A DNA stretch of 64,000 nucleotides, taken from the NCBI RefSeq assembly GCF_009184545.1, contig NZ_QJOW01000003.1, positions 201,481 through 265,480 of the forward strand, read 5' to 3'. Under the pieces are notes generated by a model. The model worked only from the letters and a program-made list of their open reading frames with translations. It made no database searches and had not been told where the DNA came from. The stretch comes from Halosegnis rubeus (GTDB taxonomy: Archaea; Halobacteriota; Halobacteria; Halobacteriales; Haloarculaceae). Both the position numbers and the translations under genes were made by a program. This document shows, in pieces, positions 1 to 60,256 of this stretch; position 1 is the first letter of the stretch; each line of letters starts with the position of its first letter.

Positions 1-866
1 CCCGTTCGTTCCGGGTAGCCCGGACGCGTCACCTCACCGTTGGAGTCGACGGCCGACCGGACCACCGCAGCGAGCCGGTAGACGCGTGGTACCGACGGGA
101 GTGGTCGCTCGGCGGCGTAGCCGTCCCGAAACGCCGCCTGCAGCGGCTTCGCGTCGCCGTACCACGCACAGATGAGGTGGTCGGCCTTCGCAACCGACAG
201 CGCCGGGTCCGCGGCCAGCGGTTCACCCCAGTCGAGCACGGCCGTCACGCCGGCGTCGTCGTCGTAGACGGCGTTCCCGGGTCGGAAATCCCACGGGTAG
301 AGCCGCGCCGGCGGTCGCTCGGGAAGGTCGGCGTCGGCCAGTGTGGTCTCCACCGGCTCGCGAAGCTCCGCCAGCGACGACGGAAGCGCCGCCAGTCCCT
401 CGGTGAGGTGGTCGTCGAACCACGCCCGCCAGTCGGCGTCGCTCGCACGTAGCTCCCCGTCGACGAGCGTCACGTCGCCGTAGCCGTCGAATCGGAACGT
501 CTCGTGGCAGGCGGCGAGCCAGCGGCCGAACGAGCGAGCGACGGTCTCTCGTGTCGCGAGCGGTAACCCGGCGAACCGCTCGTGGAGGTCGTCGCCGGGC
601 GCTCGCTCGACGACTGCGTAGCGCCCAGCTTCGTACCGTCCCTCCGCGAGAATCGCGGGCATCGGGACGGGCGTTCGCTCGCGGACCGCACGCGCTAGCG
701 CCAACTCGGTCCGGAACGCCGCGGGTCGCGCGGACAGTTGGACCACCACCTCGCGGTCCTCGAGCGTCACAAGATGTGTCTGTTTGTGGTTTCCCCGCTG
801 GACGGGGTTGACCCGCTGTACCGACTGGCCGGGAAGCGCTTCGGTCACGGCGTCGACCGCGTTCAT
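1..866 (-). CDS. APH-family phosphotransferase, 3' end cut by the window
   Basis: The gene runs off the left edge; about 288 codons are visible from the ATG at 866. The fold matches the aminoglycoside phosphotransferase/choline kinase-like family: an N-terminal ATP-binding lobe with the loop GNHKQTHLV (residues 25-33), then the catalytic region PWDFRPGN (191-198) and LDWGEP (211-216). In the usual Brenner motif HxDxxxxN the first residue is His; here it is Tyr/Pro-Trp, while Asp193, Asn198 and the metal-binding-type Asp212 are kept. The N-lobe position often held by ATP-binding Lys reads VVVQL. The substrate cannot be inferred; haloarchaeal members are generally of unknown target and need not be resistance genes. 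The next gene, a HAD phosphatase, starts upstream on the same strand with a 47-bp gap, so co-transcription is likely. Confidence 0.75.
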   Translation of the reverse strand, partial: MNAVDAVTEALPGQSVQRVNPVQRGNHKQTHLVTLEDREVVVQLSARPAAFRTELALARAVRERTPVPMPAILAEGRYEAGRYAVVERAPGDDLHERFAGLPLATRETVARSFGRWLAACHETFRFDGYGDVTLVDGELRASDADWRAWFDDHLTEGLAALPSSLAELREPVETTLADADLPERPPARLYPWDFRPGNAVYDDDAGVTAVLDWGEPLAADPALSVAKADHLICAWYGDAKPLQAAFRDGYAAERPLPSVPRVYRLAAVVRSAVDSNGEVTRPGYPERT

Positions 867-913
867 ATCCTCGAGGTAGGACTGTGGACGTATGGACTCG
901 GCGCTCGCGGCAC

Positions 914-1582
914 TCACGCTCCGAGCACGGCCGCCAGTTCGTCGACCGACCGGAGGGTGTGGGTCGGCCGGCGGTCGCCGGGACCGTCGCCGTCGGCATC
1001 GAGCCACGCGACCGGGAGGCCGGCGTCGAGCGCCCCGTCGACGTCGTGTTCCAGCGAGTTCCCCACGTAGAGGACGCGCTCGGGGGATACTCCGAGGGTG
1101 GCGACCGCGCGGTCGAACGGCTCACGGTGGGGTTTCCGCCGGTCGAGGTCGCCGGCGTACACGACCGGGTCGAACGCGCCGTCGAGTCCGAGCGCGGCGA
1201 GCTTCGTCGACTGTCGCGGTTCCGGTCCGTTCGTGAGCAGTCCGACGGAACCGTTCGCGCGCGCGGCCGCGAGCGCTCGCTCGGCCCCCGGGAGGAAGCT
1301 CACGTCCGTCCAGTCGAGCCGGTCGACGAACGCCTCGGACCACGCGCGAGCGTCGAGCTCGCAGTCGTGGTCGGCGGCGACGCGCGCGATTCCGTCTGCG
1401 AGCTGTTCGGTCTCGCCCTCGAACTCAGTAATCGCGCGCATCGCGGTCCACAGGTCGGCTGGCTCGCCGACCGGCTCGACGCCGAGGTCCTCGAAGGCAC
1501 CGTGAAAGACTGGCTCGATGGCCTGCTCGTGGCGACAGAGCGTGCCGTCGAGGTCGAACAACACCGCGGCGTACCGTCCCAT
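914..1582 (-). CDS. HAD-superfamily hydrolase (phosphoglycolate phosphatase-like)
   Basis: A 222-aa cytosolic HAD hydrolase. Motif I is LFDLDGTL near the N-terminus (nucleophile Asp10), followed by a helical cap domain (about residues 15-90), motif II GLLTNGP, motif III Lys in RRKPHREP, and motif IV VLYVGNSLEHDVDGA with the metal-binding acidic residues. This is the subfamily I arrangement of phosphoglycolate phosphatase and pyrimidine 5'-nucleotidase-like enzymes; the substrate cannot be read from sequence. I chose the ATG at 1582 because the HAD motif starts nine residues later; a longer in-frame extension to 1690 would overlap the neighbour's promoter. It lies just upstream of the APH-like gene on the same strand and is divergent from the squalene/phytoene synthase gene. 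Confidence 0.88.
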   Translation of the reverse strand: MGRYAAVLFDLDGTLCRHEQAIEPVFHGAFEDLGVEPVGEPADLWTAMRAITEFEGETEQLADGIARVAADHDCELDARAWSEAFVDRLDWTDVSFLPGAERALAAARANGSVGLLTNGPEPRQSTKLAALGLDGAFDPVVYAGDLDRRKPHREPFDRAVATLGVSPERVLYVGNSLEHDVDGALDAGLPVAWLDADGDGPGDRRPTHTLRSVDELAAVLGA

Positions 1583-1689
1583 ACACGCGGAAGGGACTGC
1601 GTCGATGCAAGAGTTTCGGGGACGGCAGACGACAGAACCCGAACGAATCCCCACGGGGCTTTTGTACCAGCGGCCGGTCTTACCATACA

Positions 1690-2763
1690 ATGAGTGATTC
1701 GCCCGGCAATCACCCGTCGATTTCGGCGGCGACGCCGGCTACAGACGCCGACCGAGCGTGGACGTTTGAGGCCGTCCACTCCGTGTCTCGGACGTTCACG
1801 CTCACCATCGAACTCTTAGAAGAGCCTGTCGACGCCTGGGTCTGTACCGGTTATCTACTCTGCCGTATCGCCGACACCATCGAGGACGACCCGTCGATTT
1901 CACCCCGCGAGCGCGCTCGCCTGCTCGAGCTGTACGACGACGTGCTCGACCCCGACCACCCCGCGACCGTCGAGACGTTCCTCACCGAGGTCGAACCCCA
2001 CCGACCCGAGGACCCCAACGCAGACTGGCAGGTCGTCGGCGACACCGAGCGCGTCTTTCGCGTCTTCGCCTCGCTTGACCCCGACGTGCAGGCCGCCATG
2101 CGCTCTGTCGTCCGCGAGATGGCCACCGGAATGGCCGACTTTCTGCGCGACCACGCCGACGAGGGGGGGCTTCGGCTCCGCACTGTCGACGAACTGGAGG
2201 AGTACTGTTGGTACGTCGCCGGCACCGTCGGCAAGCTGCTCTCGAACCTCTTTCGCGTCTACGGCGCGGAGGAGACCGACCCCGAGGACGCCCGTCAGTT
2301 CGCGCTTTTACTCCAGCTCGTCAACATCGCGAAGGACGTGCGCGACGACTACGAGACGGAAAACAATGTCTATCTACCGGGTGAACTGCTCGAAGCCGAA
2401 GGTATCGACCACGAGGCCGTCGCAGATCCGAGCGCGACCGACTCCGTCGCCCGCGTCGTCGCCCGCATCACCGACCGCGCTACGAACTACGCCGACGGCG
2501 CACGCCGGTATCTCCGCACCCTGCCCGAGGACGAAATCGGTATCCTCGCCGGGATGGGAATGCCGTATCTGCTCGCTATCGCCACCATCCGCGAGCTGAA
2601 CGAGCGCGCTCACGAGGCCGTCACCACCATCGACGCGGTGAAGATGAGCCGCGAGGAGGTCGAACTCCTGTACGCCGAGATGGCGAGCGACGTGACCCAC
2701 GAGAAAATCGACCGACTGGCCGAGACGGTCCGCGAGCGACCGTACACGGCCTCCGAGGACTGA
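1690..2763 (+). CDS. Squalene/phytoene synthase family protein (probably squalene synthase type)
   Basis: A 357-aa all-helical prenyltransferase that condenses two prenyl diphosphates head to head. The first Asp-rich Mg-binding motif is CRIADTIEDD (about residues 57-66), preceded by SRTFTLTIELL; the second is NIAKDVRDDYETENNVYLP (about 213-231). The flap-side sequence and the wording around the first motif look more like haloarchaeal farnesyl-diphosphate farnesyltransferases than like the shorter CrtB phytoene synthases, so squalene for membrane squalenes/menaquinone-rich membranes is the likelier product; this is inference. The ATG at 1690 sits directly after a pyrimidine-rich stretch with little room for a leader. 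Divergent from the HAD gene; the downstream aldehyde dehydrogenase remnant is unrelated. Confidence 0.85.
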   Translation: MSDSPGNHPSISAATPATDADRAWTFEAVHSVSRTFTLTIELLEEPVDAWVCTGYLLCRIADTIEDDPSISPRERARLLELYDDVLDPDHPATVETFLTEVEPHRPEDPNADWQVVGDTERVFRVFASLDPDVQAAMRSVVREMATGMADFLRDHADEGGLRLRTVDELEEYCWYVAGTVGKLLSNLFRVYGAEETDPEDARQFALLLQLVNIAKDVRDDYETENNVYLPGELLEAEGIDHEAVADPSATDSVARVVARITDRATNYADGARRYLRTLPEDEIGILAGMGMPYLLAIATIRELNERAHEAVTTIDAVKMSREEVELLYAEMASDVTHEKIDRLAETVRERPYTASED

Positions 2764-2986
2764 CGCGCGACTGCGGCCGCTGTCTGGCTTCTATCGAAGA
2801 GTGAAAACGAGGCGTCTACTCGTCGAGTCGTTTCGGCTGTGGTCCGTGGCGCGGCTGGAGCGGAATCAGTCGACGGTTGGTGGTCGGTGTCGGACGAGTC
2901 GTGGTGCGTGTTGCGGTTTGCGTTGTCATGCGGGATATGGTCAGGTCGGTCTGTGAGCGGTGCGCCGGGTCACGGAGCCTGCCGAT
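2764..2986. other. Intergenic stretch without a recognisable gene
   Basis: Between the synthase stop and the aldehyde dehydrogenase remnant I find no gene. Base composition is uneven: a GT-rich segment (2840-2960) is followed by an AT-richer patch around 3010-3040. It lies where the missing 5' part of the aldehyde dehydrogenase gene would be expected, so it probably marks a deletion or rearrangement joint. No direct repeats or insertion-sequence ends were recognised. Confidence 0.5.
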
Positions 2987-4117
2987 ATGCTACCATACCC
3001 TCACTGCGAGAGTATCTATAATAAATGTTCATGTTCTATTCCGGTCCTGCACGTCCGCGGCATCGTCAAGCGCCAGCCCAAGGGCGTCGTCACGGTCATC
3101 TCTCCGTGGAACTTCCCGCTGAATCTGTCGATGCGCGCCATCGCGCCCGCCGTCGCGCTCGGCAACACCGTCGTCGTGAAGCCGGCGACCAATACGCCGG
3201 TCGTCGGCGGCCTGCTCTTCGGCACGCTCGCCGAGGCCGCGGGCATCCCCGACGGCGCCATCAACGTCGTCACCGGCCGCGGCTCTGACGTCGGTGACGC
3301 CGTCGCCAGCCACTCCGAAAGCGACGCCGTCGCCTTCACCGGTTCCACGCCGGTCGGAAAACACGTCGCGGGTCTCGCGGCCGAGAACCTCGCGATTCAG
3401 GCGATGGAACTCGGCGGCAACAACGCCCACGTCGTCACCGAGAGCGCCGACCTCGATGCGGCCATCGACAGCGCCGTCTTCGGCACCTTCGTCCACCAAG
3501 GGCAGGTGTGTATCTCTATCAACCGCCACATCGTCCACGAGTCGGTGTACGACGAGTACGTGGAACGACTCACCGAGCGCGCCGAGTCGCTGCCCGCCGG
3601 CTCTGCCCACGACGACACCGTCGTCGGCCCTATCATCGACGAGAGCCAGCGCGACGAGATGCTGGAGTACGTCGAGGAGACGGTCGAGGCCGGCGCGACC
3701 CTCGAAACCGGCGGCTCCACGGTCAAACTCGACGGCGTCGACGACTCGCTCGTCGTCGAACCGACCGTCCTCTCGGACGTGACCAACGTCATGGCCGCCG
3801 CCTGCAACGAGCACTTCGGCCCCATCGCGCCGGTCATCCCGTTCGAGACCGTCGACGAGGCGGTCGACCTCGCCAACGCGACGGAGTACGGGCTGTCGGG
3901 GTCGGTCCACGGTGACCTCGATACCGCCCTCGATATCGCCGACCGCATGGATACCGGCCACGTCAACGACCAGCCAATCAACGACGAGGCACACGTCCCC
4001 TTCTCGGGCACCAACGCCTCCGGGATGGGCGGGTACAACAGCGAGACTATCATGAACGAACTCACCGAGACGAAGTGGATTTCGCTCCAGCGCGACGAGC
4101 GCGAGTACCCCTTCTAA
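2987..4117 (+). pseudogene. Aldehyde dehydrogenase, N-terminal part deleted
   Basis: Recognisable NAD(P)-dependent aldehyde dehydrogenase homology starts abruptly near 3057 (GIVKRQPKGVV, then VISPWNFPLNLS) and continues to a normal C-terminus. Present are the cofactor-site Lys (VVVKPA), the FTGSTPVGK loop, the general base Glu in MELGGNN, and the catalytic Cys in HQGQVCISINR. Family proteins are usually about 480-500 aa; here only about 350 aa of homology remain, so roughly the first 130 residues of the NAD-binding domain are absent. The reading frame upstream is open to ATG 2987 or GTG 2960, but the roughly 23 extra residues do not look like the family. No frameshift is seen downstream, so the loss may be recent. 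Without this segment the NAD fold and oligomer contacts should fail; hence called a pseudogene. Confidence 0.75.
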
Positions 4118-4164
4118 ACCGCCGGTCGCTCCAGGCTTTTGCTGCTGGCGGTATTAATACGAGT

Positions 4165-5244
4165 ATGCCAGCTATCGGTGTCATCGGAGCCGGAGCCGCG
4201 AGCGCCGCCGCCACGTACGTCCTCGATACCGCCCTTCCCGAGGCGAGCGTGACCGTCCTCGAAAAGTCGGGGGGCGTCTGTGGCCGCGCGGCCACCCGCC
4301 GGCGCGGCGACTACGAGTACGTCTACGACTACGGCGCGAACTACGTGAAGGACGACGACGAACGCGTCACCGACCTGCTCACCGAGCAGCTCGATTCCGA
4401 CGGGCTCGTCGACGCCAGTGAACCTATCTACGTCTTCGAGGACGACGGCGAGATACAGGAGGGTCGCGACGCCGACGACCACAAGTGGAGCTACGAGCGC
4501 GGCCTGACCCAAATCGCGAAGCGTCTCTTTGGTGAGACCGACGCCGACATCCACCGACGAACGCGCGTCGAGACCATCGAGCGCGACGGCGAGCAGTGGC
4601 GACTCCACGCCACCGACGGAGGTGGTGGCGACTCCGCGTCTGACGCCACCGCCGGCGACTCATGGGGTCCTTTCGACGCCCTGCTCGTGAACCCGCCCGC
4701 TCCCCAGACCGCCCAACTACTCCGCGATGCCGACTGGGACCACGACGTGCGCGAGACCCTCGCCGAGGCCTGCGAGGCCGTCCCCTATCGGAGTGTCTAC
4801 ACCACCGTCCTCGGCTACGAGTTCGACCTCGACGCTCCCTACTACGGACTTGTCAACGTCGACAAGAACCACGAGGTCGGCTGGCTCTCCCGCGAGGAGT
4901 GTAAGGCCGGCCACGTTCCCGACGGCCAGTCCGTCCTCGTCGTGCAGGCGAACCACCAGTGGTCACTCGACCACTACGACGACGACCCCGAATCCAACGT
5001 CGCCGCGCTGGCCGACCACGCCGCCGACATCGTCGGCGACGACCGCCTGCGCGACCCGGCGTGGTCGGACCACCAGGGCTGGCGGTACGCGCTCCCCGAC
5101 GACGGCGTCGCGCACGGACCCGTCGACAGCGCCGAATCACACGGTCTCTACTGTCTCGGCGACTGGGTCGGCGGCGAAGCGCGGCTTCACGTCGCACTCA
5201 GAAACGGACTCGACACCGGCGAACGGCTCGCCTACTCGCTGTAG
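4165..5244 (+). CDS. FAD/NAD(P)-binding amine-oxidase-like oxidoreductase
   Basis: A 359-aa flavoprotein. The N-terminus carries the dinucleotide-binding fold IGVIGAGAASAAATY followed by LEKSGGVCGRAATRR, the layout of the renalase/amine-oxidase branch (FAD-dependent oxidoreductases such as Synechocystis slr1300-like and renalases). A C-terminal GLYCLGDWVGGEARLHVAL motif closes the FAD site. The substrate is unknown. The ATG at 4165 was chosen because it immediately precedes the Rossmann motif and has a TATA-like TATTAATACG 10-15 bases ahead, so a leaderless or very short leader transcript is likely. It follows the aldehyde dehydrogenase remnant by 47 bases on the same strand and precedes the convergent tRNA-Gln. 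Confidence 0.82.
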   Translation: MPAIGVIGAGAASAAATYVLDTALPEASVTVLEKSGGVCGRAATRRRGDYEYVYDYGANYVKDDDERVTDLLTEQLDSDGLVDASEPIYVFEDDGEIQEGRDADDHKWSYERGLTQIAKRLFGETDADIHRRTRVETIERDGEQWRLHATDGGGGDSASDATAGDSWGPFDALLVNPPAPQTAQLLRDADWDHDVRETLAEACEAVPYRSVYTTVLGYEFDLDAPYYGLVNVDKNHEVGWLSREECKAGHVPDGQSVLVVQANHQWSLDHYDDDPESNVAALADHAADIVGDDRLRDPAWSDHQGWRYALPDDGVAHGPVDSAESHGLYCLGDWVGGEARLHVALRNGLDTGERLAYSL

Positions 5245-5246
5245 AC

Positions 5247-5273
5247 TCGCTGCGTTCCCTACCTCGAATCCAG
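5247..5273. repeat. Inverted T-arm copy in the 3' flank of tRNA-Gln
   Basis: Positions 5264-5273 (TCGAATCCAG) are the exact reverse complement of tRNA-Gln positions 5313-5322 in the T-arm. Just before it lie a CTCGCTGCG stretch and TTCCCT (5255-5260), the same order of elements seen in the 3' flanks of tRNA-Val and tRNA-Phe in this window. Here the outer direct copy of the tRNA 3' end is missing, possibly because the oxidoreductase gene ends at 5244. A pre-tRNA read into this trailer could pair it with the T-arm over 10 bp. Function unknown. Confidence 0.45.
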
Positions 5274-5303
5274 CAACTGCTGACGGTGTTGTCGTGGAAG
5301 AAG

Positions 5304-5376
5304 TAGTCCGTACTGGATTCGAACCAGTGTCGTTGCCCCCAGAAGGCAACAGGATTGGCCACTACCCTAACGGACT
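5304..5376 (-). tRNA. tRNA-Gln (anticodon CUG)
   Basis: Read on the minus strand, the acceptor arm AGTCCGT (5370-5376) pairs over seven bases with ACGGACT (5305-5311); the discriminator is A from 5304. The T-arm ACTGG-TTCGAAT-CCAGT is perfect, and the anticodon stem TTGCC/GGCAA encloses the loop TTCTGGG, giving anticodon CTG. CCA is not encoded. The 3' flank contains an inverted copy of the T-arm, and an HNH endonuclease gene lies 58 bases upstream of the 5' end. Confidence 0.93.
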
Positions 5377-5434
5377 GTGCAACTACCGATAGCGCGTTAG
5401 GTCATATGAGGCTTGCGAAAGCCGCCGCTCTCGG

Positions 5435-6007
5435 TCACTCTGCGTCCTCGGAGGCGTAATGTTCTTTCCGATGGCAGTTCGCACAGAGCACGATACACTT
5501 GCGTATCTCCTCACGGATGGACGGTTTCGAAAACGCCCGATTCACCATCCGCGCGACCCCGTCTCGCTTCTCGACTCCTTCCGGATGGTGGAAGTCGAGA
5601 CACGCCGGATGGGGTTCGCCACAGCGCTCACAGCGACAGTGCTCGCGTTTGTACTCCGTGAGCCACGCTCGAAGCTCACGCCGCCGTCGCTTCTTCTTTC
5701 CCTGCTGTCGGTCGCGGTTCTTCCGATACCACCGTTGGTGTGGCGACAGCTCTTCCCACACCTCGTCGTCGTCGAGTTCCACGTCGTCTGGCTTCGGCGC
5801 AGTCCGCGAGATGCCGGTCTGTCCGCCGGCCTCGACCGTCTCCAACCCGGCCTGCTCTTTTGCCTCGTTCCAGCCACCGACCACTCGCATGATTGTGGTC
5901 GACGCCGGCTGATGCCCCAGCTTCTCGTACTGAACCTTCGACGGCGATTCACCGAGGTCGGCTGCTGCCCGACGGAGTGCGTCCAGACACTCCTGTTCGG
6001 TCGTCAT
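5435..6007 (-). CDS. HNH endonuclease with homing-endonuclease-associated repeat
   Basis: A 190-aa DNA-binding nuclease. The N-terminal segment (ECLDALRRAAADLGESPS, QYEKLG, VVGGWNEAKEQAG; residues 5-55) matches the small helical repeat found in homing-endonuclease-associated and HNH proteins. A basic linker (QQGKKKRRRRELRAWL) leads into a zinc-stabilised HNH domain: CRCERCG, the HH pair in LDFHHPEG, and CIVLCANCHRKEHY at the C-terminus. The ATG at 6007 was chosen as the first codon of the repeat; the open frame upstream reads through non-homologous sequence. It stands 58 bp from tRNA-Gln and could be a free-standing homing or restriction-type nuclease; no intron or intein was found nearby. 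The promoter-side neighbour is the AIR-synthase-like gene 25 bp upstream, same strand. Confidence 0.8.
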   Translation of the reverse strand: MTTEQECLDALRRAAADLGESPSKVQYEKLGHQPASTTIMRVVGGWNEAKEQAGLETVEAGGQTGISRTAPKPDDVELDDDEVWEELSPHQRWYRKNRDRQQGKKKRRRRELRAWLTEYKREHCRCERCGEPHPACLDFHHPEGVEKRDGVARMVNRAFSKPSIREEIRKCIVLCANCHRKEHYASEDAE

Positions 6008-6032
6008 AGCTCGGGTCGCGCGTAATCCGTTA

Positions 6033-7040
6033 TCAACGCTCGCTCCGATACTCGTCGTAGGCTGCCCACGAGGGGTCACTCCCCGGATGTTCGAGCCGCT
6101 CGCCGGACTCGAAGACGCCCTCGCCCGCCGACACCGTGCCGACGACCGCGGCTGGCGTCCCCTGTTCGTCGAGTCGCTCGACCGCGCGCTCGGCGTCGTC
6201 GGGGTCGATAGCGACCAACAGCGTCCCCGAGGAGGTGACCTGCAGAGGGTCGACGCCGATGGCGTCACAGACGGCCCGCACGCCGTCGGCGTAGGTGAAC
6301 GCGTCGCGGTCGATGTCCACCCGGACGCCGGCGCTGTCGGCCATCTCGACGAGCCCGCCCTGCACCCCGCACTCGGTGGCGTCGTGCATCGCGTGGGTGT
6401 CGAACTCGGCGAGCGCGAGCGCGTCCTCGACGCAAGCCACGTCGTCGAGTCGGGCTTGGCCGGCGGCGACCGTCTCGGCGTCGAGACCCAACTGCTCGGG
6501 GAACATCGAGGCGAACAGGCCGGCGGTCTCGCTCGCTGGACCGGTCGTCACGAGCAGGGCGTCGCCGGGCTGTGCGCCGTCGGGTCGAATCACCTCCTCG
6601 TGGTCGCCGACGCCCAGGATGGTCGCCGCACCGACCCACGGGAACTGGACGCCGGCGTAGCGGGCGGTGTGGCCGGTGGCGACGCTCACGCCGAGTTCGC
6701 GGGCGCGGTCGTCCATCGCGCGCCACGCGTCGCCGAACTGCGCGTCGGTCATCTCCGGCGGGAGACTGAATCCGACGGCGAGATGGCTCGGCGAGATACC
6801 GGCGACAGCCACGTCCGCGAGACAGATATCGAGAGCGAACCGGCCGGCGCGCTCGAAGCCGAGTCCCGGCGGGAGCGACAGCGGGTCGGTCGCGACCACG
6901 AGCGCCTGCCCGCCGATGTCGAGCACGCCGAAATCCACGCCGGCCTGCGGACCGATGCGGACGTCCTCGCGGTCCGTGCCGAGATGCGGATAAATCGTCT
7001 CGCGGAAGAACTGGCCGCCGACCTTGCCGAGTTCGGGCAT
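6033..7040 (-). CDS. AIR-synthase-related protein (PurM/HypE/ThiL superfamily)
   Basis: A 335-aa protein with the two-domain PurM-like ATP-binding fold. It opens with PELGKVGGQFF, and has the GVDFGVLDIGG, VATDPLSLPPG and DICLADVAVAGISP segments of the N-terminal domain (acidic Mg-ATP residues), then HAMHDATECGVQGGL and QVTSSGTLLVAI in the C-terminal domain. The wording is closest to archaeal HypE-like/AIR-synthase-related proteins rather than true PurM. There are no hydrogenase genes nearby, so a role in hydrogenase maturation is not supported here; the reaction is unknown. The ATG at 7040 was preferred to 7067 because homology starts at MPELGKVGG. Divergent from purO, with a 105-bp shared upstream region. 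Confidence 0.78.
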   Translation of the reverse strand: MPELGKVGGQFFRETIYPHLGTDREDVRIGPQAGVDFGVLDIGGQALVVATDPLSLPPGLGFERAGRFALDICLADVAVAGISPSHLAVGFSLPPEMTDAQFGDAWRAMDDRARELGVSVATGHTARYAGVQFPWVGAATILGVGDHEEVIRPDGAQPGDALLVTTGPASETAGLFASMFPEQLGLDAETVAAGQARLDDVACVEDALALAEFDTHAMHDATECGVQGGLVEMADSAGVRVDIDRDAFTYADGVRAVCDAIGVDPLQVTSSGTLLVAIDPDDAERAVERLDEQGTPAAVVGTVSAGEGVFESGERLEHPGSDPSWAAYDEYRSER

Positions 7041-7127
7041 ACGCCCGCTGACTCGCGCCACCGGCAAAGCCGTCCCGCTTGCTCTGCCGTTGGACAGGAG
7101 TGTCTAATCGCCACGGCTAAGTTGTGA

Positions 7128-7139
7128 AGCTGTACAGCT
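7128..7139. promoter_or_regulatory. 12-bp perfect palindrome in the purO upstream region
   Basis: AGCTGTACAGCT is self-complementary over all 12 bases and ends seven bases before the purO ATG, in the region shared with the divergent AIR-synthase-like gene. Its place at or just after the expected transcription start fits a repressor operator, but no regulator is known to bind it. Confidence 0.3.
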
Positions 7140-7145
7140 GTGTGC

Positions 7146-7718
7146 ATGTACGTTGGCCGATTCGTCGTCGTCTCGCCGGAGGTTGCCGCCTACCGCGTCT
7201 CCTCGCGCTCGTTCCCAAATCGTCACGTGTACGAGCGCAACGGCGCGCTCGTCGTCGGGCCGACCGCCGACGCCCCCGAGACCGACAATCCGTATATCGC
7301 CTACAACTGCGTCCGGACGACCGACGACACCGCCGTCGTCGGCAACGGGAGCCACGTCGACCCAATCGCCGAGAAGCTCGCGCTCGGCTACCCGGCGCGT
7401 GACGCGCTCGTCACCGCGCTTCACGCTCTCGACTTCGAAAAGGACGACTACGACACGCCCCGCGTCGCCGGCACCGTCTCCGAGGCAGGCGCGTACATCG
7501 CCACCGTCCGCCGGGACGCCCTCCACGTGCAGGAGGTCACGGAGCCGACGCTCGTCGCCACCTACGAGCGGGACGCGCCCGCCGGCTACGACCTCGACGC
7601 GACCGAGCCCGCGGCCGCGGCCCGCGAACTGTACGACGCCGACTTCGAGCATAGGGTCTGTGCGGTGGCCGTCGCTCCTGTCGACGGTGGATTCGAGACG
7701 GCCTACGTAAACGAGTAG
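7146..7718 (+). CDS. purO: IMP cyclohydrolase, archaeal type
   Basis: A 190-aa enzyme closing the second ring in purine synthesis (FAICAR to IMP). The N-terminal [20 protein letters not shown], the SRSFPNR segment, and [23 protein letters not shown] are typical of archaeal PurO, which is unrelated to bacterial PurH-C. The ATG at 7146 is chosen over an in-frame GTG two codons upstream because family members start MYVGR. It is divergent from an AIR-synthase-fold protein, although that neighbour is not clearly a purine gene. The metallophosphoesterase gene follows 36 bases downstream. Confidence 0.93.
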
Positions 7719-7754
7719 CCCCAGGTTGAAGCCGCCGGCGACAGAACCCTGCGT

Positions 7755-8405
7755 ATGCTCGTCGGCGTCCTCTCTGATATCCACGGCAACAAGCCGGCCC
7801 TCGACGCGGTGCTCGATGATCTGCCCGCCGTCGACGCGTTGGTCTGTGCGGGCGACGTGGTCGGCTACAATCCGTGGCCCGGCTACTGTGTCGACACCCT
7901 CCGTGAACGAGACGCGCCGACGGTGCGAGGCAACCACGACCGCGCCGTCGTCACCGACACCAGCTTCGGGTTCAACTCTATGGCCGGCGCGGGCGTCCGG
8001 TACGCGCGCGAGCACCTCACGGACGCACAGTTCGCGTGGCTGGAGTCGCTGCCGACCGAACACAGGAGCTACGGCATCGACATCGTCCACGGACACCCCG
8101 ACGACCCCGACCGCTACACCTACCCCGACATGTTCAGCGAGTCGCTGCTCGACGGGGACGCGCTCGTCATGGGCCACACCCACGTCCAACACCACGAGCG
8201 GTACGACTCCGGCGTCGTCCTGAACCCAGGCAGCGTGGGCCAACCCCGCGACGGTGACCCCGACGCGGCGTACGCACTACTCGACACGGACGACTGGACG
8301 GTCGAGGAGCGCCGCGTCGGCTACGACATCGAGCGCGTGGTCGAGCGAGTCACAGAGACCGACCTGCCCGCAGAAATCGGAATGCGGCTCCGGAAAGGCC
8401 GCTAG
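7755..8405 (+). CDS. YfcE/MJ0936-like metallophosphoesterase
   Basis: A 216-aa cytosolic phosphodiesterase of the calcineurin-like fold. Metal-binding blocks appear in the usual order: LSDIHGN (residues 6-12), CAGDVVGYNP (about 33-42), RGNHDRAV (about 59-66), VHGHPDD, and MGHTHVQHHER near residues 140-150. Such enzymes hydrolyse phosphodiesters with Mn or Ni in vitro; the physiological substrate is unclear. Its stop codon overlaps the stop of the convergent aspartate kinase gene by four bases. Confidence 0.88.
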   Translation: MLVGVLSDIHGNKPALDAVLDDLPAVDALVCAGDVVGYNPWPGYCVDTLRERDAPTVRGNHDRAVVTDTSFGFNSMAGAGVRYAREHLTDAQFAWLESLPTEHRSYGIDIVHGHPDDPDRYTYPDMFSESLLDGDALVMGHTHVQHHERYDSGVVLNPGSVGQPRDGDPDAAYALLDTDDWTVEERRVGYDIERVVERVTETDLPAEIGMRLRKGR

Positions 8406-9589
8406 AAGTCGACGCCCTGCATCAACTCGAGCGCGCGCTCCTTGGCGTCCCAGTCGACGAAGATAGCCACGGAGGTCGCGGAGCTAATCACGTCGTGGAC
8501 GGTGAAGCGCTCGTCTGCAAGCGGGGTGAGCGCCCGATAAATCATTCCCGGTTCGCTCGGGAGGTTCCCGCCAGTGACGCGGATGACGGCGATGCTGTCC
8601 TCGACGGTGACAGACGAGAGCGCTTCCTCGGCGACGACCGCCTCGTGGAGAATCGTCTCCGCCTCCTCGGCCTGTTCGGCGTCGACGTAGAAGGTGACCG
8701 AGTCCATGCCGGAGGCGACGGCGTCGATGTTTATCTCGGCCGCCGACAGCGGCGCGGAGAGTTCGTTCAGGATACCGGGACGGTTCCGAATCGCCCGTCC
8801 CGCGACGGTGATACAGGCGAGTTTCCCCTCTCGGAGGTCGATGAGGTTCTCGAACTGGCCTTCGATGTTGGTGCCGCCGGCCAGCAGGTCGCCGTGTTGG
8901 TAGTGGACGACGCGCACGTCCATCGCTTCGGTCTTGTACGCGAGCGCGGACGGCGCGACCACCTCGGCCCCGCGGAAGGAGAGGTTCCGGAGCTCGTCGA
9001 CGCTGATTTTCCCCACGTTGCGCGCTCCCTCGACGACGGAGGGGTCACCGGTCATCACGCCCTCGACGTCGGTGACGATGACGACCTCGTCGGCGTTCAT
9101 GTGTTTTCCGAGCATGACGGCGGTCGTATCCGAGCCGCCCCGCCCCAGCGTCGTCACGTTGCCGGCGTGGTCCTGTGCGAGAAAGCCCGTGATGACGGGG
9201 ACGAACCCCTCTGCCGACATCGCCTCCGCGAGCGCGAGCGCCCGTCGGTTCGTCTCTTCGACGTCCACTTCGCCGTGGGCGTCGGTGATGATAGGCCAGT
9301 CCTCGCTGCCCGGTTCGAGAAACCGCGCGTCGATGTCGCGGGGGGTGAGCGCGGCCTTCAACATTCGGACGGAGGTTCGCTCGCCCATCGAGACGATTTC
9401 GGCGCGGTCGGCGTCATCGGTGTCGAACTCGATGGAGCCGAGCAGATAATCGGTGGTCGACCCCATTGCGCTGGCGACGACGGCCACGTCGTGGCCCGCT
9501 TCGACCGCGTCGGCAATCGAGTCGGCCGCCCGATTCACCCGTTCGCCGTTACCGAGCGAGGTGCCGCCGAACTTCGCTACAACCCGCAT
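8402..9589 (-). CDS. lysC: Aspartate kinase
   Basis: A 395-aa enzyme phosphorylating L-aspartate, the first step to threonine, methionine and lysine or diaminopimelate. The kinase domain starts VVAKFGGTSLGNGERV (residues 3-18), continues with a nucleotide-binding TTLGRGGSDTTAVMLG (about 145-160) and VTDVEGVMTGDP. Two C-terminal ACT domains (about residues 245-395) would give feedback control by an amino acid end product; CITVAGRAIRNRPGILNELS begins the first. Length is slightly shorter than bacterial monofunctional enzymes. Upstream, a GGGGATAATCCC motif around 9640 may be the promoter element. Confidence 0.94.
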   Translation of the reverse strand: MRVVAKFGGTSLGNGERVNRAADSIADAVEAGHDVAVVASAMGSTTDYLLGSIEFDTDDADRAEIVSMGERTSVRMLKAALTPRDIDARFLEPGSEDWPIITDAHGEVDVEETNRRALALAEAMSAEGFVPVITGFLAQDHAGNVTTLGRGGSDTTAVMLGKHMNADEVVIVTDVEGVMTGDPSVVEGARNVGKISVDELRNLSFRGAEVVAPSALAYKTEAMDVRVVHYQHGDLLAGGTNIEGQFENLIDLREGKLACITVAGRAIRNRPGILNELSAPLSAAEINIDAVASGMDSVTFYVDAEQAEEAETILHEAVVAEEALSSVTVEDSIAVIRVTGGNLPSEPGMIYRALTPLADERFTVHDVISSATSVAIFVDWDAKERALELMQGVDF

Positions 9590-9673
9590 CTGCTCACCCG
9601 TGAGTCGTGTACGTGCATAGCAGAACTACCCTACCGTGGGGGATAATCCCTTTCATGCCACGAAAGATTGCCC

Positions 9674-10714
9674 TCACTCTGGCGCGTCGGTCGCTCCGTC
9701 GCCGTCGACTGTGTCGTCACCCGACTCCCCAGTTTGTTCGCCATCGGTCCGTTCGCCCACGCCGCTCGCTCCACTCGGTCGCTCGTCAGTCACCATCCCC
9801 GTTCCCGGTTCGAAGTCGTAGCTGTGCCACTCGGGGTCGACGGCCGCGCCGTTCAGCTTCCGAATTCGAACCTGCTTCACCAGCTGGTCGCCCGAAGGCT
9901 CTTCGTCCAACTTCAGTTCGGCGAGCCCGTCCATCACGTAGGTGAGGTCGTGGGGGAACGAGTCGCCCCTACCGCCGCCCCCGCCGAAGGCCGCGCCGGC
10001 GAAGATGGGGACGAATCGCCCCTTGCATACGTCAGCGCGCACGTCTTTCACGAAGTCGTACGCCTGGACCGGCTGGGTGAGCGTCCCCATCTCAGTCAGC
10101 GAGTCGATGACGACTAGCCCGTCGTCGATCATCTCGCGGCCTTCGAGCGCGTTGTCGAGTTTGTTCTCGATTTCGCGAATGTCGGTCGGGTCACGGACGG
10201 GCGTGGTCGCGGCCCGTGCAACCGTCGAGAGATAGCGATTCCACTCGCCCATCCGGTCGAACAGCCGGTCGCGGCCCTGTCCGTCCAGCCGGTAGGTGAA
10301 ACAGTCGACGATGTGGAGTTGCCCCGACTCCAGATACGGCAGCACGTTCCACTCCATGGCGATGAACTGCTGGACGACCGCGCTGGGTGGCTCCTGGAAC
10401 GAGGTGAAGACGACCGGCTCGCCCCGCTTGAGCGCGCGCCACACCAGCTCCGCGCCGAGCGCGCGGTCGCGCGTTCCCGCCTCGCTGGCGACGAGGACGA
10501 AGGCGTTGCGCGGAAAGCCGTTCGGCAGCGAGGCGTCGAGTCCCGACACCCCCGGCTGGATGCGACGGTGGCTGTCGGCCGCGACGAACGGCGTTCCCGT
10601 CTCGGACAGCCGCTCCCGACACGCCGTCGAACAGAACTGTTTGCCCCCGTGTTCGACGGGCGATTCGGGTATCGCCATCCGACAGAAGGCACACTCCCCC
10701 GAGTCGTCGCTCAT
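9674..10714 (-). CDS. KaiC/RecA-like ATPase-fold protein with zinc finger and degenerate P-loop
   Basis: A 346-aa haloarchaeal protein. Residues 8-32 form a small Cys4 finger (CAFC, then CSTAC), which resembles a TRASH-like treble clef. Then comes a RecA/KaiC-like core opening GVSGLDASLPNGFPRNAF. At the normal Walker A position the sequence reads ASEAGTRDRAL (77-87), lacking the GKT/GKS lysine-threonine pair, while Walker B-like GLVVIDSLTEMG (199-210) is kept. The C-terminus is an acidic tail, with a glycine run GAAFGGGGGRGDSF around residue 260. This suggests a signalling or scaffolding role rather than ATP hydrolysis; the function is unknown. Start at ATG 10714 because the finger begins there; the frame is open further upstream without homology. 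Confidence 0.7.
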   Translation of the reverse strand: MSDDSGECAFCRMAIPESPVEHGGKQFCSTACRERLSETGTPFVAADSHRRIQPGVSGLDASLPNGFPRNAFVLVASEAGTRDRALGAELVWRALKRGEPVVFTSFQEPPSAVVQQFIAMEWNVLPYLESGQLHIVDCFTYRLDGQGRDRLFDRMGEWNRYLSTVARAATTPVRDPTDIREIENKLDNALEGREMIDDGLVVIDSLTEMGTLTQPVQAYDFVKDVRADVCKGRFVPIFAGAAFGGGGGRGDSFPHDLTYVMDGLAELKLDEEPSGDQLVKQVRIRKLNGAAVDPEWHSYDFEPGTGMVTDERPSGASGVGERTDGEQTGESGDDTVDGDGATDAPE

Positions 10715-59052: not shown

Positions 59053-59519
59053 TAATGGGTGCGAATCAACCGCTTAACGTCGATTCCAGCCAAGGTCGTC
59101 ATACCGACTCGCCGCCGCCCACAGCCGCGAGACGACCGCGAGAGAACAGTATGTTAGGATAGAGAGCGCACGGCCTTGTTCTCGAACTCGCTCAAGCTGT
59201 TAGAGAGCCTTCTACAAGTAGCGCCCCAATCCCCTCGATTAGTTAACGAGCGCTTGCACGCAGGCGTCACGCGTCTCTTATAGTTGTCGTGGTGAATGCT
59301 TTGCCTCAAGACTCGAAATTGGCACGCTGGGGGTGCTATACTCCGTAATTCTTCTCGGAATAGGGGAAGGACTGAAACGGCCACGGCACGCACAACGCAG
59401 TGAAGCGCCCGACGGTACAGGGGTGCGTGCTGTGGCCGGTTCAAATCTCGCGGGGAAACACGGTGATATAGGGTCGAATCCCTACGCCGTATTGCGAATC
59501 CAATCGGCGCCGAAAAGGA
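59053..59519. other. Intergenic region with large inverted repeat and tRNA-like fragments
   Basis: No gene is supported in 467 bases. A 16-bp stem, 59378-59393 with 59423-59438 (one G-U type difference), encloses a 29-base loop. Beyond it GGTTCAAATCTCG (about 59438) and AGGGTCGAATCCCT (about 59470) resemble T-arms, but neither has acceptor or anticodon arms to fit. A relic of inserted tRNA-associated DNA is likely. Confidence 0.5.
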
Positions 59520-59642
59520 ATGCCGCCTCCCCGATTTGAACGAAGGAAGACGGTCGCTCACTTCGTTCGCGCTGCGACTTCCAGGCTCAAATCGGCTCGG
59601 CGTTGCTTCTTCACTGCTCGCTACGCTCGCAGGTTCAGAATA
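59520..59642. repeat. tRNA-Phe 3'-end copy plus inverted copy (hairpin unit)
   Basis: Bases 59520-59542 repeat exactly the 23 bases 59642-59664 of tRNA-Phe and its 3' flank. Positions 59531-59539 (CCGATTTGA) pair with 59587-59595 (TCAAATCGG), and 59545-59549 (GGAAG) with 59578-59582 (CTTCC), giving a hairpin 59522-59602 with a loop rich in TCGC/TTCG. The right arm is therefore also complementary to the tRNA's own T-arm. It lies in the 3' flank of the tRNA; the segment between the direct repeats is about 122 bp. Confidence 0.8.
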
Positions 59643-59716
59643 TGCCGCCTCCCCGATTTGAACGGGGGACAGCTCGATCTTCAGTCGAGTGCTCTCCCAG
59701 TCTGAGCTAAGGCGGC
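59643..59716 (-). tRNA. tRNA-Phe (anticodon GAA)
   Basis: The minus strand starts GCCGCCT at 59716 and pairs with AGGCGGC; discriminator A (59643). The anticodon stem CTCGA/TCGAG encloses CTGAAGA giving GAA, and the T-arm has GTTCAAATC. TTTTTCACG read on the minus strand around 59745 may be its promoter. Its 3' flank has the direct and inverted copy unit. Confidence 0.94.
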
Positions 59717-60046
59717 TCAACTCGAACGACACGACGGGCGTGAAAAAGCGTTTCCATCCGCGATAGAATCGCTGTGGGCAAGCCGGTCGACCGAGCAACC
59801 GAGGCGGTGGCCTACCGCGCCGCGCGCCCCAGCGCGCGTGTGCAGTCTGGGGAAGGGTTGGGAGAGCGGTCGAAGACCGCGGACCAGCGGGCGGGAGCGA
59901 AGCGATACGCGAGCGCGCGGTGCGGTTGCGGTGCTGTTCCCTAGACCAAGCAACGAGAGTGGTGCTGTCGCTGTTGAAATCAGAGCAAACAGTGTGGTGC
60001 TGTGTCCTGAGCCAAGTAACGAGAGTGGCGTTGTCGAAGACAACGG
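59717..60046. other. Intergenic region between tRNA-Phe and the tRNA-Val unit
   Basis: Contains the tRNA-Phe promoter side, the dispersed-repeat copy 2 (59795-59961), and two near-duplicate motifs, ACCAAGCAACGAGAGTGGTG (59945-59964) and GCCAAGTAACGAGAGTGGCG (60011-60030). All frames are open, but none looks coding. Confidence 0.65.
59795..59961 (+). repeat. Dispersed noncoding repeat, copy 2
   Basis: This copy matches the reverse complement of 43555-43719 along its length, with blocks such as GGCGGTGGCCTACCGC, GGGTTGGGAGAGCGGTCG, AGACCGCGG and CCAAGCAACGAGAGTG. The two copies are about 16 kb apart and inverted, so recombination between them could invert the interval. No target duplications seen. 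Confidence 0.75.
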
Positions 60047-60184
60047 GGTCCGGGCGGAATGTGAACCACGGGAAGACGTGCTCGCTGCGCTGCGCGCGTC
60101 TTCCCTGCTTCAATTCCGTCCGGCGCTTCGCACACGCGGTGCTGGCTCCTCACTCCGTTCGTCGCAGTCACCGCGAGAACTCAG
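60047..60184. repeat. tRNA-Val 3'-end copy plus inverted copy (hairpin unit)
   Basis: GGGTCCGGGCGGAAT at 60046-60060 followed by GTGAACCACG repeats, with a one-base insertion, the tRNA-Val 3' end at 60186-60209. Positions 60050-60060 pair with 60113-60123 (11 bp, one G-U type), and 60070-60078 (GGGAAGACG) pair with 60097-60105, giving a long hairpin. The right arm 60109-60123 is complementary to tRNA-Val 60190-60204 at 14 of 15 bases, the other being G-U compatible. Same architecture as at tRNA-Phe, but with a different sequence. Confidence 0.82.
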
Positions 60185-60256
60185 TGGGTCCGGGCGGAAT
60201 TGAACCACCGATCTCCTCCTTGTAAGGGAGGCGTCATACCACTAGACCACGAACCC
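60185..60256 (-). tRNA. tRNA-Val (anticodon UAC)
   Basis: The minus strand reads GGGTTCG (60256-60250) and pairs with CGGACCC (60192-60186) with one T-G; discriminator A. Anticodon stem CCTCC/GGAGG encloses CTTACAA, giving TAC; T-arm GGTGG-TTCAATT-CCGCC. CCA is not encoded. The 3' flank carries the hairpin unit. Confidence 0.94.

Follow-up and report, generated by a model that had tools for sequence, protein, structure and literature searches.

Behind the tRNA-Val(TAC) gene in a 64,000-nt stretch of the Halosegnis rubeus genome (contig NZ_QJOW01000003.1, positions 201,481 to 265,480; hereafter the window) lies a hairpin that is assembled from direct and inverted copies of the tRNA's own 3' end, and a second such unit follows the nearby tRNA-Phe gene. 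What is this structure, and why would a tRNA gene be flanked by an inverted replica of itself? A reading made from the sequence alone had offered three answers: an inverted copy that competes with tRNA folding in the pre-tRNA, a tailored terminator, or a minimal integrated unit bounded by att repeats. We lean, with a little better than even confidence, toward a version of the last, in which the Val and Phe units belong to one family, spread across the class, of DNA hairpin cassettes (~118 bp) that are gene-less and non-autonomous and insert into the tRNA genes of Halobacteria at the junction of T-stem and T-loop, between G53 and T54 (G53|T54).

Results

All 43 tRNA genes of the window's own genome (G000) were located with the Rfam tRNA model, and each tRNA 3' end was compared with its own flanks (250 nt on the 3' side, and the 5' flank as well) and with dinucleotide shuffles. 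Direct copies scored 19-25 behind nine of the 43 tRNAs, vs. shuffle maxima of 9-15 (0/200 shuffles at each), and a tenth, weaker copy behind Arg-TCT scored 11 vs. a shuffle maximum of 10; nothing comparable to the 3' copies was found in the 5' flanks of the 43 tRNAs. Because the direct-copy scores in the 3' flanks top the shuffle maxima, a chance origin of the copies is excluded. The sequence-only reading had named two outcomes that would speak against it, equal matches in shuffled flanks and no other tRNA of the genome with the same design; real flanks beat shuffled ones, and other tRNAs of the genome do show the design. Reading the flanks by eye revealed units at Val-TAC, Phe, Arg-CCT, Arg-TCT, Ser-GGA, Ser-TGA, Ser-CGA, Leu-CAA, Ala-CGC, Pro-TGG (two in tandem), Thr-CGT (decayed) and perhaps Gln-CTG, i.e. 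at 11 or 12 of the 43 genes, with about 31 lacking any unit. In the reading direction of the tRNA, a spacer containing a small hairpin comes first, then an inverted arm, next an apex hairpin (GC-rich, ~42 nt) and last a direct copy of tRNA positions 53-73, and the tRNA is left intact beside the cassette.

The direct copy has sharp edges. Among 148 copies behind 97 tRNAs, identity between copy and tRNA was 0.24 at position 51, 0.89 at 52, about 1.0 from 53, 0.92 at 73 and 0.57 at 74; the copy is exactly 53-73, bounded by G53 and N73. In the same set, arrays had a median period of 118 bp, with tandem arrays in genome G006 at tRNA-Val (3 perfect copies), Ser-TGA (3) and a tRNA-Met (4). These arrays are polar: in 47 of them, the copy nearest the tRNA was more tRNA-like 24 times and the outermost copy twice, the rest being ties (p = 1e-5). 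Given this 24:2 polarity, either arrays grow at the tRNA or conversion keeps the proximal copy alike. As a separate observation, one locus of G047 (L328, C1:62700-65000) displayed three model matches with identical scores and a spacing of 122 bp, probably one unit that was amplified recently.

Units are gained or lost between close relatives. When all tRNA genes of G000 were paired by syntenic flanks with those of its congener G004, the units at Ser-TGA, Pro-TGG, Ser-GGA and Arg-TCT were missing in the latter, and the flank beyond the outer copy in G000 aligned to the flank directly after the G004 tRNA (93% at Ser-TGA, 82% at Arg-TCT, 77% at Pro-TGG and 70% at Ser-GGA, over 60 nt); for Leu-TAG and Glu-CTC, a perfect copy exists in G004 only. 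The Phe site is empty in the relatives G002, G005 and G010 and filled in others. At Val, G000 and G004 have the outer copy (including GTTCACATTCC) and the downstream flank in common; spacer and apex have been replaced, and the arms stayed.

A covariance model trained on seven units of G000 matched 35 of 39 relatives and 113 of 116 genomes of the class Halobacteria (>=90% completeness), the three exceptions being G035, G048 and G081; in a phylum sample it hit 24 of the 25 genomes from the class and none of about 123 from outside it. Up to 42 matches were found in a single genome (loose threshold). Of the matches inspected, almost every one sits immediately after a tRNA. Units occur at no fewer than 32 tRNA isoacceptors, and Salinarchaeum, Halapricum, Natronomonas, Halopenitus and Halobellus are among the named carriers. 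The earlier remark that the Phe unit repeats the Val design with a different sequence was correct, and it holds for the whole class. Two matches seemed to lack a tRNA: one (L136) follows an island whose att core is short, the other (L137) a tRNA-like gene missed by ARAGORN. The plasmid collection yielded one match, inside the tRNA-Cys of Haloarcula halophila plasmid NZ_CP119561 (L175), where the unit splits the tRNA exactly at G53|T54 and brings no 3'-end repeat. This plasmid holds at 3845-6980 more than 20 tRNA genes, many truncated- or degenerate-looking, with a TROVE (Ro60-like) gene after them and a type B DNA polymerase before.

Each inverted arm is tailored to its own tRNA. With the arm located by a generic inverted T-loop motif, independent of the tRNA's own sequence, its match to its own vs. 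permuted tRNAs was 0.97 vs. 0.58 at position 57 and 0.97 vs. 0.77 at 59; the own-tRNA match at 57, 59, 62, 63 and 64 was reached by 0/2000 permutations, and from 65 outward it equaled chance. Going outward from the inner end of the hairpin, the match declines (0.97, 0.89, 0.74 and 0.42 at 61-64). Within the same isoacceptor, where the tRNA differs between genomes, the arm fits the tRNA of its own genome (46 vs. 4 at position 57, 10 vs. 1 at 59, 15 vs. 0 at 62). When the outer copy departs from the tRNA, the arm sides with the tRNA in 49 cases and with the copy in 4; on this ground we rejected the idea that the arm is continually corrected from the copy next to it. The joint decay of arm and copy weakens the case for selection that maintains pairing between arm and tRNA, yet 12 of 34 arms have remained perfect although the copy beside them has decayed. 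Most simply, the arm would fit the tRNA at the birth of the unit and later be neither repaired nor strongly selected. As to the claim of an inverted copy of T-arm and acceptor, that copy is present; the family norm, however, is 10-11 bp (54-63/64) fading outward, not a full T-arm/acceptor copy, and the 15-nt match at Val lies at the long end of the family range.

The apex pairs in the manner of DNA. Across 98 distinct units, pairing holds in 91.3% of structure cells, and 18 of 23 pairs change on both sides (0/500 shuffles reach either value). Its helices contain 9 G-U vs. 12 A-C cells; haloarchaeal tRNA stems under identical scoring contain 43 vs. 0. Since RNA structure would tolerate G-U, whereas the apex shows no such tolerance, the structure seems to count at the DNA and not the RNA level. 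An RC-GNA-GY triloop ends the apex in 81 of the 98 units (about 12 expected from shuffling), and triloops of this kind form very stable single-stranded DNA hairpins.

Discussion

We envisage that a trans-acting recombinase or transposase would move or add the unit as folded single-stranded DNA at G53|T54, and that the arm, through its 10-11-nt match beside the insertion point, would either pick the target or be copied from it at insertion; every unit would be tailored to its own tRNA because of this selection or copying. After insertion, arm and copy would decay, and recombination between neighboring copies may amplify or delete units. Several points weigh against such cassettes: 1) recombination between the 21-bp copies could precisely delete a unit and leave the same filled/empty pattern, with the direction unproven per site; 2) the polarity could also arise if the tRNA converts the proximal copy; 3) the arm helix, unlike the apex, has 38 G-U vs. 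15 A-C cells; 4) most loci outside G000 were picked with a model of one apex type, a selection that inflates the apparent sharing of apices; 5) the plasmid insertion stands alone, and the array that holds it contains tRNAs that look defective; and 6) no enzyme was found, nor any autonomous relative, the latter having been sought in viral, plasmid and phage collections only.

A bolder form of the cassette hypothesis, which we entertain as possible and rather unlikely, is programmable gene-less mobile DNA, with the arm as a target-complementary guide rewritten from the target tRNA at each insertion between G53 and T54, and with a host-encoded enzyme stacking the polar arrays. Guide-directed transposition (IS200/IS605 TnpA guides, IS110 bridge RNA) offers a parallel, as there too a short internal sequence is complementary to the target flank by the insertion point, and the permutation and within-isoacceptor tests place the complementarity of our arms at 54-64, at the insertion point; the differences are that no transposase was seen with the units and that the arm is 10-11 nt long, its guide role being putative. 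The units fall among small non-autonomous inserts at tRNA genes, and there is a minority chance that they are a guide-directed kind of their own.

The main rival needs no mobility enzyme. Template switching and unequal recombination at tRNA genes (T-arm fold-back, quasi-palindrome correction) would make and tailor the hairpins during replication or repair, and spread would be confined to one array. The outward fading of the arm match, as conversion tracts would produce it, the near-identical tandem units of G047 and the swapped apices beside unmoved arms in G000 vs. G004 all fit this proposal. It is ill-suited to the finding, among loci picked with a model of that type, that one apex type sits behind many unrelated tRNAs throughout the class, which needs spread between loci; moreover, the arm follows the tRNA and not the adjacent copy (49:4), and the boundaries are fixed at 53 and 73. 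We accordingly regard it as an unlikely, if serious, origin of the units.

We find it improbable that the units stem from ordinary tRNA-targeted integrative elements (those with a tyrosine integrase and att repeats), be it as scars or as minimal derivatives. The idea draws on a real resemblance, in that both target the tRNA 3' end, restore the tRNA and leave direct repeats; haloarchaeal integrative elements duplicate 3' parts of tRNAs (PMC7921747, PMC3119063); archaeal integrative elements and proviruses at tRNA 3' ends use SNJ2-, SSV- and pNOB8-type integrases, and share with the units the tRNA target, the direct repeat of the 3' end and the intact tRNA (PMC8371274). Such elements differ from the units in that they span kilobases and encode an integrase, that their repeats are here 40-60 bp or about 11 bp and not exactly 53-73, and that they have no tailored inverted arm. 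In the two integrase-associated cases, from G000 and G025, the 40-60-bp repeats reach the anticodon arm or further (D arm). The G025 case is an 8.1-kb putative element behind tRNA-Gly-TCC, with the integrase gene beside the tRNA and two units outside its far repeat, i.e. the element lies between the tRNA and the units; because they lie outside that repeat, these units preceded the element or arose independently. At the end of the G022 island stands a core of 11 bp, far shorter, with a unit after it. The truncated-tRNA attP of virus HF2 has no such hairpin. Repeat length and nesting order therefore led us to reject an att scar left by known integrative elements, so that, of the minimal integrated unit bounded by tRNA-3'-end repeats in the sequence-only reading, the unit itself stands, on filled/empty sites, tandem arrays and the sharp 53-73 copy, and its descent from a tyrosine-integrase element does not. 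Viruses and plasmids were likewise considered as vehicles and set aside: viral contigs gave no match to one exact core pattern, the phage collection gave no match to a haloarchaeal virus, and plasmids supplied the one case inside tRNA-Cys.

Two further observations concern these islands. The G000 element (L213, C7:435700-455699) is a putative 13.5-kb integrative element; its integrase gene adjoins tRNA-Gly-GCC, and about 60 bp of the tRNA are repeated at its far end. In G022 (L136, C37), positions 1-9698 encode molybdopterin/Rieske oxidoreductase subunits (arsenite-oxidase-like) and molybdenum cofactor genes; this region adjoins the 11-bp tRNA-Arg(CCG) 3' core and the unit, and is probably a cargo-bearing island.

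Least probable is a functional RNA, whose trailer hairpin would regulate tRNA maturation or end transcription while the inverted arm competes with the T-arm: the units do lie always 3' of the tRNA on the same strand, the arm tracks the tRNA across genera and predicted folds are strong, but about three quarters of the genome's tRNAs have no unit, congeners gain or lose units at syntenic sites, the apex does not tolerate G-U, arm and copy decay jointly, a terminator-like site was sought at the unit and none found, and a Rfam search returned no family covering it, which leaves both the competition with pre-tRNA folding and the tailored terminator of the sequence-only reading unsupported.

Among other known systems, integron cassettes with their attC sites come close in stacking beside a fixed site, apparently newest nearest, in a folded hairpin with a variable tip and in a G|TT junction; polar growth is another likeness, our arrays being polar as well, though gene conversion could also explain this. 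The units differ in targeting the T-loop of tRNAs, in an arm tailored per target and in cargo, as no cargo gene was found and they are too short to hold a gene; their copy starts GTTCRAA, not GTTRRRY, and no integrase was found, a specific search for integron integrases not being part of the analysis. Repetitive extragenic palindromes and bacterial interspersed mosaic elements (REP/BIME) and miniature inverted-repeat transposable elements (MITEs) are likewise short, gene-less, hairpin-forming and present in many copies per genome, but the units are nearly confined to the 3' flanks of tRNAs, and they carry arms specific to the target and a 21-bp tRNA copy. As for a MITE of a known insertion sequence, the units have a fixed 21-bp duplication and an inverted repeat that mirrors the target rather than the element's own ends.

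The family was apparently undescribed before. In the open-access literature on haloarchaea, as it concerns inverted repeats downstream of tRNAs, partial tRNAs, MITEs or attC, we found only a passing mention, one sentence on 'partial tRNAs' adjoining full copies in Haloferax gibbonsii LR2-5 (PMC7921747); that part of the source lists them next to integrative elements and describes no inverted arm, hairpin, array or wider family. No docking site of archaeal mobile DNA is better known than the 3' end of tRNA genes, and almost every haloarchaeon has 118-bp inserts there, fitted per tRNA. Short 'partial tRNA' repeats in haloarchaeal genomes are thus not automatically provirus relics. If the arm is a guide or a target copy, this would be a new way of aiming DNA at a chosen gene, and the organisms involved have good genetics (e.g. 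Haloferax volcanii).

Features of the window

Table 1. Components of the Val and Phe units and their tRNA genes (positions in the window)
Feature	Positions	Strand	Basis and remarks
tRNA-Val(TAC), target gene	60185..60256	(-)	ARAGORN; Rfam RF00005, 67.6 bits; positions 53-73 = 60185-60205
Val unit, spacer with own small hairpin (GACGAACGGAGTGAG type)	60125..60184	(-)	sequence
Val unit, inverted arm, reverse complement of T-loop/T-stem and beyond (54-68, 1 mismatch)	60109..60124	(-)	
Val unit, apex hairpin (GCAGGGAAGACGCGCGCAGCGCAGCGAGCACGTCTTCCC)	60070..60108	(-)	fold; covariation in 98 distinct units
Val unit, direct copy of tRNA-Val 3' end (52-73)	60045..60069	(-)	sequence; kept with flank in congener G004
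Val unit, covariance-model match	60049..60124	(-)	79.9 bits; Val unit is a training member of the model
tRNA-Phe(GAA), second target	59643..59716	(-)	ARAGORN
Phe unit, spacer with small hairpin CTGCGAGCGTAGCGAGCAG	59596..59642	(-)	sequence
Phe unit, inverted arm (CCGATTTGAG)	59586..59595	(-)	
Phe unit, apex hairpin	59542..59585	(-)	fold
Phe unit, direct copy of tRNA-Phe positions 53-73, perfect 21-mer	59521..59541	(-)	

The hairpin reported in the tRNA-Val flank was recovered; its inverted copy lies where it had been placed, as judged by sequence and complementarity (60106-60123 with 60190-60207, 18 nt, 89% complementary), and the second direct copy is present, its limits now refined to those of Table 1. 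The apex is formed by GGGAAGACG...CGTCTTCCC, and the spacer style recurs behind tRNA-Val in G006 and G010. The direct copy has one inserted base in its T-loop (GTTCACATTCC vs. GTTCAATTCC) and a discriminator changed from A to C. A T-loop change with one inserted C, GTTCACAATCC or GTTCACATTCC, recurs across genera in the outer copies that follow Val, Pro and Phe (e.g. window 60045-60069, L131, L154 and L156), seemingly more often than random decay predicts.

The whole Phe unit spans 59521-59642. Farther downstream of tRNA-Phe, 59361-59456 gave a weak covariance-model match (E 0.17) with an arm-like GAGATTTGAACC that occurs in congener G002 too, and may be an old decayed unit. A separate intergenic repeat of ~44 nt (TGCGGTGCTGT...AACGAGAGTGG...) lies at 59927-60036 in two copies 66 bp apart; it has kin at many places in the genome and seems unrelated to the tRNA units.
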